A stretch of 64,000 nt of DNA from Rhodoferax sp. OV413. GTDB lineage: Bacteria > Pseudomonadota > Gammaproteobacteria > Burkholderiales > Burkholderiaceae_C. Below the pieces are notes generated by a model. That model did not search any database and was not told the DNA's origin. It saw nothing but the letters and a program-made list of their open reading frames with translations. The stretch is taken from assembly GCF_900104385.1 (NCBI RefSeq), contig NZ_FNJA01000009.1:1-64000 (forward strand), given 5' to 3'. Below are positions 8,041 through 8,176 of this stretch, piece by piece; within the stretch, counting starts at the first letter, position 1; the number at the start of each line of letters is the position of its first letter. Both the position numbers and the translations under genes were made by a program.

Positions 8041-8069
8041 AAAAAAATGCCCCGGCCATCGGCCGAGGC
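8041..8069 (-). terminator. Rho-independent terminator of the candidate sRNA
   Basis: On the minus strand a 9-bp stem (GCCTCGGCC, loop GAT, GGCCGGGGC; one U-G wobble) is followed by ATTTTTTT. It ends 54 bp before the hemJ start codon, so it would stop the upstream RNA before hemJ. Confidence 0.85.
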
Positions 8070-8141
8070 TTTAAGCCCGCGGGTTATTAAACCGTGAGGC
8101 CCCGCTCAGGGAGGTAAAGCGGGAGAGCGGCAAGCCGCCCC
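8041..8141 (-). ncRNA. Candidate small RNA with anti-Shine-Dalgarno loop
   Basis: About 100 nt, bounded by a promoter (8148-8176) and a strong terminator (8041-8069), with no ORF inside. From the 5' end it can form GCGGC-TT-GCCGC. Next comes a 6-bp stem CCCGCT/AGCGGG (8101-8123) displaying the 11-nt loop TTACCTCCCTG, which contains ACCTCCCT, complementary to ribosome-binding sites. Then come GGGCTTAAAGCC and the terminator stem. An exposed anti-SD loop followed by a U-tailed terminator is the usual build of Hfq-dependent repressing sRNAs. I do not recognise a named family. All these elements are seen; expression and targets are inferred. Confidence 0.72.
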
Positions 8142-8147
8142 GAAGCC

Positions 8148-8176
8148 AATCTAACAAAGCTGCAGAGCGGATTCAA
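8148..8176 (-). promoter_or_regulatory. Promoter of the candidate sRNA
   Basis: Minus strand: TTGAAT (-35, 8171-8176), 17-bp spacer, TAGATT (-10, 8148-8153). Predicted start near 8141. It is back-to-back with hemB and shares the 40-bp region upstream of the hemB start. Confidence 0.7.

Follow-up and report, generated by a model that had tools for sequence, protein, structure and literature searches.

The interval between hemJ and hemB in Rhodoferax sp. OV413 raises the question of what kind of gene it holds. A preliminary description had proposed an uncharacterized small RNA (sRNA) with an anti-Shine-Dalgarno loop that fit no family name. An Rfam search of the whole window (the full 64,000-nt stretch of DNA analyzed here) at gathering thresholds yielded a single match, to the anti-hemB family RF02837, at 8041-8126 on the minus strand, with 57.4 bits against a gathering score of 49.5 and with positions 1-81 of the 81-position model covered. 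It is the only RF02837 copy in the window's own genome and lies divergent from hemB, a layout that is usual for anti-hemB but not universal. The segment 8041-8141(-) is a real sRNA gene and a member of an already catalogued family. The observation was thus correct, but because RF02837 matches over the gathering cut-off, the statement that no family name fits was wrong; nor is the RNA uncharacterized, as the family is named in print and a homologue, ncS04 of Burkholderia cenocepacia, has been published. We consider it likely that this sole anti-hemB copy (RF02837, ncS04) is transcribed from a sigma-70-like promoter into an RNA of ~101 nt with four hairpins, which would engage Hfq via its U tail and lower the translation of several mRNAs through a CU-rich loop. 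The parts of the locus are as follows.

8041..8141, minus strand: anti-hemB sRNA gene, predicted transcript ~101 nt (RF02837 match; start by analogy with ncS04)
8171..8176, minus strand: -35 element TTGAAT (sigma-70-like pattern recurs in family copies)
8148..8156, minus strand: extended -10 element TGTTAGATT (pattern TGNTAN[AC]NT recurs in family copies)
8125..8140, minus strand: 5' hairpin, beyond the Rfam match (fold; covariation in 72 copies)
8101..8123, minus strand: hairpin with anti-Shine-Dalgarno loop UACCUCCCU, loop at 8108-8116 (fold; conservation)
8075..8100, minus strand: small middle hairpin (fold; covariation)
8041..8069, minus strand: rho-independent terminator, stem 8069-8049, then seven T (terminator search; covariation)
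8210..9220, plus strand: hemB (delta-aminolevulinic acid dehydratase), divergent neighbor (Pfam ALAD, 2.9e-140)
7558..7986, minus strand: hemJ-type gene (UPF0093), same strand, downstream (Pfam UPF0093, 5.3e-40)

All parts of the sRNA gene sit where the preliminary description had placed them, on the minus strand between hemJ and hemB. The promoter it had drawn, with TTGAAT (8176-8171) and TAGATT (8153-8148) spaced by 17 nt, was recovered, as was the terminator (8069-8049, 9 pairs, followed by T7). The minus strand has no ORF of at least 60 aa inside the sRNA, in line with the earlier reading of a non-coding gene, and an ORF starting at 8042 runs away from it. The loop hairpin also stood, but not its 6-bp stem: the fold gives 7 pairs around UACCUCCCU, and the earlier count of 6 pairs and 11 loop bases left out the last pair. 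The RNA start was set 7 nt after the -10 element by analogy with ncS04 and is a predicted position.

The fold energy was -48.8 kcal/mol (z -2.88), and none of 200 shuffles was as good. Covariation was examined in 72 of 162 fetched copies, extended by 22 nt at the 5' side; each genome contributed a single row, and the set comprised the window copy plus a random draw of 31 rows from its family and 40 from elsewhere. Four hairpins covaried (5', seed, middle, and terminator), with double changes in 18 of 25 pairs (shuffle mean, 10.4; 0/500 as high) and a covariation score of 0.334 versus 0.153. Cells were paired at 94.4%, compared with at most 57.6% when partners were slid, a control that favors the structure because the consensus was drawn from the same alignment. 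Kinship of rows can also beat shuffles, and double changes that cross families are the better witness. Every consensus pair had changed on both sides in the 5' hairpin (4/4, with 83.7% of cells paired) and in the middle hairpin (5/5), as had 7/8 pairs of the main terminator helix, while the helix of the seed loop was paired in 99.6% of cells. The terminator loop of the window copy measures 3 nt.

The loop and its stem are kept in relatives. CCTCCCTGAGC was unbroken in 156/162 copies, and one stem pair below this loop, also written as the CCUCCCUGA loop, switches between C-G (61) and U-A (11); part of the loop conservation reflects selection of the rows, since they were found with a model of the anti-hemB RNA. 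Conservation and covariation put the sRNA well beyond chance. Structure, conservation, and the published homologue back the earlier view of an sRNA with an anti-Shine-Dalgarno loop that is probably trans-acting.

RF02837 scored over its cut-off in 48/60 relatives, in 95/120 genomes of the window's family, and in 164/250 genomes of the order. A draw from the class gave 10/185, made up of the window's own genome, one other of its family (G084), and eight labeled "same class"; none of the eight over-cut-off copies outside the order (L175-L182) lay beside hemB, and three carried the strict sigma-E pattern described below. Many weaker matches also came up in the class draw; they were left uncounted because the search rings below the cut-off in 3/14 control genomes. 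The 162 rows comprise the window copy (L001), 30 loci from relatives, 27 from the order draw, 80 further stretches, and 24 new loci from the family draw, that is, 57 rows in the window's family and 105 outside it, from 158 genomes, four of which contributed two. Two rows (L077 and L078) score below gathering, and the set leans toward strong matches because best scores were taken first. Several copies can share a genome (G268, with L089 and L141; also G113, G068, and that of L178), some less than 200 nt apart, and G268 holds six matches, four of them over the cut-off. A c-di-GMP-I riboswitch (L181:2037-2121(-), 77.9 bits) lies ~450 nt from an anti-hemB copy.

The window promoter is weak: its hexamers fit the consensus at 8/12 positions (manual count), and a promoter scan listed none because it needs 9/12. 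A TG at 8156-8155 makes the -10 an extended one. Across the family, a sigma-70-like pattern (TTGN3-N15-20-TANNNT or TGNTAN[AC]NT) was found within 75 nt upstream of 48/57 copies, 17/19 in the first batch and 31/38 later. The TTGN3/TANNNT pattern alone was present in 37/57 (shuffle mean, 4.64) and the extended -10 in 35/57 (shuffle mean, 1.8), all upstream shuffles being single-base shuffles. Outside the family, the corresponding counts were 19/105 (shuffle mean, 9.69; maximum, 18) and 4/105 (shuffle mean, 4.13).

Another promoter type marks most rows outside the family. GGAACTT and TCTNA-type boxes were first noticed on reading the first 58 loci, and a search pattern, GAAC[TC]-N15-19-TC[TA]NA in the 75 nt upstream, was set after these (L001-L058). 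We take GAAC[TC] and TC[TA]NA-type boxes to be the sigma-E type consensus. The pattern occurred in 83/105 rows outside the window's family (shuffle mean, 0.34; maximum, 2) and in 0/57 inside it; on held-out rows, the counts were 50/66 and 0/38, and a looser form gave 93/105 and 2/57. A GGAACTT-type -35 with a TCTNA-type -10, as looked for in a sigma-E-dependent sRNA, was absent from the window copy and from 57/57 family rows. These promoter patterns suggest that in the other sampled families the gene is mostly under sigma-E control, and that a sigma-70-like promoter takes its place in the window's family as well as in Burkholderia and its relatives.

The same split was seen at rpoE. A related motif, GAAC[TC]-N15-18-GTC[TA]N, set after L163-L172, was present in the 300 nt before rpoE (TIGR02939) in 20/22 genomes outside the window's family (0.3 expected) and in 0/14 within it (0.1 expected), or in 13/15 and 0/11 of held-out regions, respectively. 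Extending the search to 1,200 bases for 13 of these 14 family genomes gave one occurrence, at -789. The sRNA pattern fit 2/22 rpoE regions (0.33 expected), and the rpoE motif has another -10; the sRNA and rpoE promoters are therefore more alike in the -35 than in the -10. In 4 of 15 family genomes (G014, G020, G028, and G035), no RpoE scored above the TIGR02939 cut-off (best scores, 47 to 100 bits), yet these keep anti-hemB over its own cut-off (L015, L011, L010, and L013, respectively). These four copies have in common the stem CCCTGC/GCAGG and, in the 5' part, TAGCCGC. Genome-wide in 13 genomes, a strict sigma-E pattern gave 9 matches (0 to 3 each) against 26 (0 to 5 each) for its reversed control, one of the nine being the anti-hemB promoter in G040. 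Since the genome-wide pattern falls below its reversed control, it is the sRNA and rpoE loci that carry the sigma-E reading.

The lineages also differ in the terminator. A CU-rich terminator loop, TCCCC[TC]T, a pattern set after reading the 72-copy alignment, was present in 85/105 rows outside the family and 0/57 inside. TGACAGC in the middle hairpin occurred in 38/57 family rows, the window copy not among them, and in 0/105 others. A pattern scan for the window's terminator type returned at least 120 stretches; the 80 loci listed, from Burkholderia, Paraburkholderia, and others, were examined. The extended -10 TGGTATATSATA lay upstream in 74 of these 80 and a slightly wider sigma-E pattern in 4; a CU-rich terminator loop was present in 2, a count that the scan pattern depresses because it works against such loops. 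In Pararobbsia silviterrae (L209), GAACTTTT and TATCATA overlap the TGGTATATSATA box, like a middle state. In B. cenocepacia NCTC13227 (L220), an RNA of 105 nt measured from the U tail would start 7 nt after TATGAT, ncS04 itself having been mapped in strain J2315; the corresponding distances past the -10 were 7 nt in L199, 9 in L271, and 10 in L209.

For the family as a whole, the balance tips slightly toward the following history. Anti-hemB would at root be a sigma-E envelope-stress sRNA with two CU-rich seeds, common to the majority of the order's families and present in a few genomes outside it. A switch to a housekeeping promoter, with loss of the second seed, would have taken place in such lineages as the window's family, whose rpoE genes have likewise lost their sigma-E-type promoter, and also in Burkholderia and its relatives, among which Pararobbsia (L209) still carries both boxes in overlap; ncS04, the member studied experimentally, would be the rewired form. 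In the searched literature, which is thin for subscription journals, we found nothing on sigma-E control of anti-hemB; the split in promoter and second seed between lineages was likewise not found in print and is new here. A catalogued sRNA thereby gains a testable regulator: apart from the window's family and the Burkholderia group, most copies have a promoter of the envelope-stress type. The window's family would offer a natural rewiring, with the same RNA and the same seed under another promoter, and with some genomes that have no RpoE over the cut-off.

In the window, the sigma-70-like promoter would make a minus-strand RNA of ~101 nt (8141-8041), in the order 5' hairpin, hairpin presenting UACCUCCCU, small middle hairpin, and terminator with its U tail. 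By analogy with ncS04, this tail is most likely where the RNA binds Hfq. The CU-rich loop would then pair with the Shine-Dalgarno sequences of several mRNAs, and such pairing would lower their translation. The most probable role of anti-hemB is that of an Hfq-class sRNA blocking ribosome-binding sites, where the targets and the repression are what we infer. Across 49 crude ORFs, duplex energies of the loop correlate with the values for the 16S tail (r 0.65), so the loop may pair with Shine-Dalgarno sequences in general. The exact loop complement, TCAGGGAGGT, occurred once in the window genome outside the gene, one base before an ATG, which is an unusual spacing. Five genomes of the genus gave 15 such matches, 5 of which were the complementary strand of the sRNA gene itself (L184, L186, L187, L193, and L197); the other 10, viewed by eye over 20 nt before and 25 nt after, offered no convincing target. 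The neighbors hemB and hemJ were considered as targets and set aside: the loop scored -8.0 against the hemB start region (shuffles -6.5, sd 2.4; region set with a 3-nt offset from the ATG at 8210) and -12.5 against that of hemJ (shuffles -9.9, sd 2.7), within one sd of shuffled regions in both cases.

The empty target searches, by complement scan and by hemB/hemJ pairing, would also suit a CU-rich loop that serves as a protein-binding site, or an RNA that acts as a sponge for other RNAs rather than as an mRNA repressor, and the loop and its flank are conserved beyond the need of Shine-Dalgarno pairing (CCTCCCTGAGC in 156 of the 162 model-found rows). We regard this as unlikely, given that RIL-seq in Bordetella pertussis captured the CU-rich regions of two other sRNAs together with Shine-Dalgarno-like target motifs, as described in the available part of PMC12235514. 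Less probable again is that nothing is transcribed here, the locus being a relic in the window genome or a mere terminator. Expression in Rhodoferax sp. OV413 is a prediction, which leaves room for such a reading, but the 5', seed, and middle hairpins covary as well as the terminator, and promoter patterns recur across the family. Because the RNA is directed away from hemB and hemJ starts only downstream of it, it is the terminator of neither gene; we judge a relic or terminator very improbable.

A repressor of distant mRNAs has also to be weighed against a cis regulator of hemB or hemJ, acting as an antisense to the hemB leader or through interference between divergent promoters. The family name, anti-hemB, suggests as much, as do the 68 bp that separate the hemB ATG from the predicted start of the RNA, and the synteny: by tblastn with the window's HemB, hemB lay divergent beside the sRNA gene in 126/162 rows (45/57 in the family and 81/105 elsewhere) and never in the other orientation. 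However, 36/162 rows had no adjoining hemB by the same search. Two of these stop within 70 nt at a contig end, but 34 have at least 600 nt on the upstream side and thus had room for it, and the copies outside the order were without it in 8/8 cases. Among hemB-less rows of the other families that have 600 nt or more of flank, 18/22 keep the sigma-E-type promoter (19/24 with contig-end rows included), and because they keep it, this promoter goes with the sRNA. The predicted RNA stops short of the hemB coding sequence, and the start regions of hemB and hemJ gave no pairing signal. Cis control is accordingly a doubtful explanation, and the heme-specific role hinted at by the preliminary description is not supported by the 34 copies without hemB, the promoter that most of them outside the family retain, or the neighbors' pairing energies. 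The name anti-hemB points to a neighbor, not to a shown target. The preferred reading remains a trans-acting, Hfq-class sRNA.

Among known systems, ncS04 is the closest. In the available text of PMC5688073, ncS04 is anti-hemB of B. cenocepacia, 105 nt long, seen by Northern blot with its 3' end placed by RACE; it is listed as strongly expressed, was steady in all seven tabled qPCR conditions, and is stated to bind Hfq. The same text notes CU-rich unpaired stretches in 7/15 candidates, in a sentence that does not name ncS04. The accessible part of PMC4603805 places ncS04 divergent from BCAL0264 and co-purified with Hfq, and that of PMC3521395 lists anti-hemB for B. pseudomallei; in the portion of the review PMC10987360 that is available, ncS04 and hemB have 0 occurrences. 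ncS04 and the window copy are alike in matching the model over gathering, in lying divergent beside hemB, in having the same loop and a similar length, and in the sigma-70-like extended -10 of the Burkholderia kin. They differ in the middle hairpin and promoter letters, and hemJ follows in the window. Expression and Hfq binding of ncS04 come from the bench, whereas the window copy is known from sequence alone, and its expression, size, and Hfq binding would be those carried over from this homologue. We also considered B. pertussis CT_433/S17, CT_521, and CT_532 as anti-hemB members; their locations, as printed in the accessible material, make them others.

According to the available parts of PMC12235514 and PMC11722255, other CU-rich sRNAs of B. 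pertussis have Shine-Dalgarno-like targets, and the latter likens the Hfq-linked S17 to the RF02278 sRNAs. The double-hairpin or toxic sRNAs of RF02278 (ncS27) are alike on paper, with CU-rich single strands set against ribosome-binding sites, but occupy other loci than the window copy, and RF02278 was absent from the 3 matches that an Rfam search of 7980-8220 gave at E up to 1. MicA and RybB are sigma-E-dependent sRNAs of enterobacteria that repress mRNAs of outer-membrane proteins. MicA is also cited in PMC12235514. Neither has an Rfam match at the window locus at E up to 1, and they differ from the window copy, which is without a sigma-E-type promoter. The likeness lies instead in the anti-hemB relatives outside the window's family, with their sigma-E-type promoter, and in the Hfq binding of the homologue.
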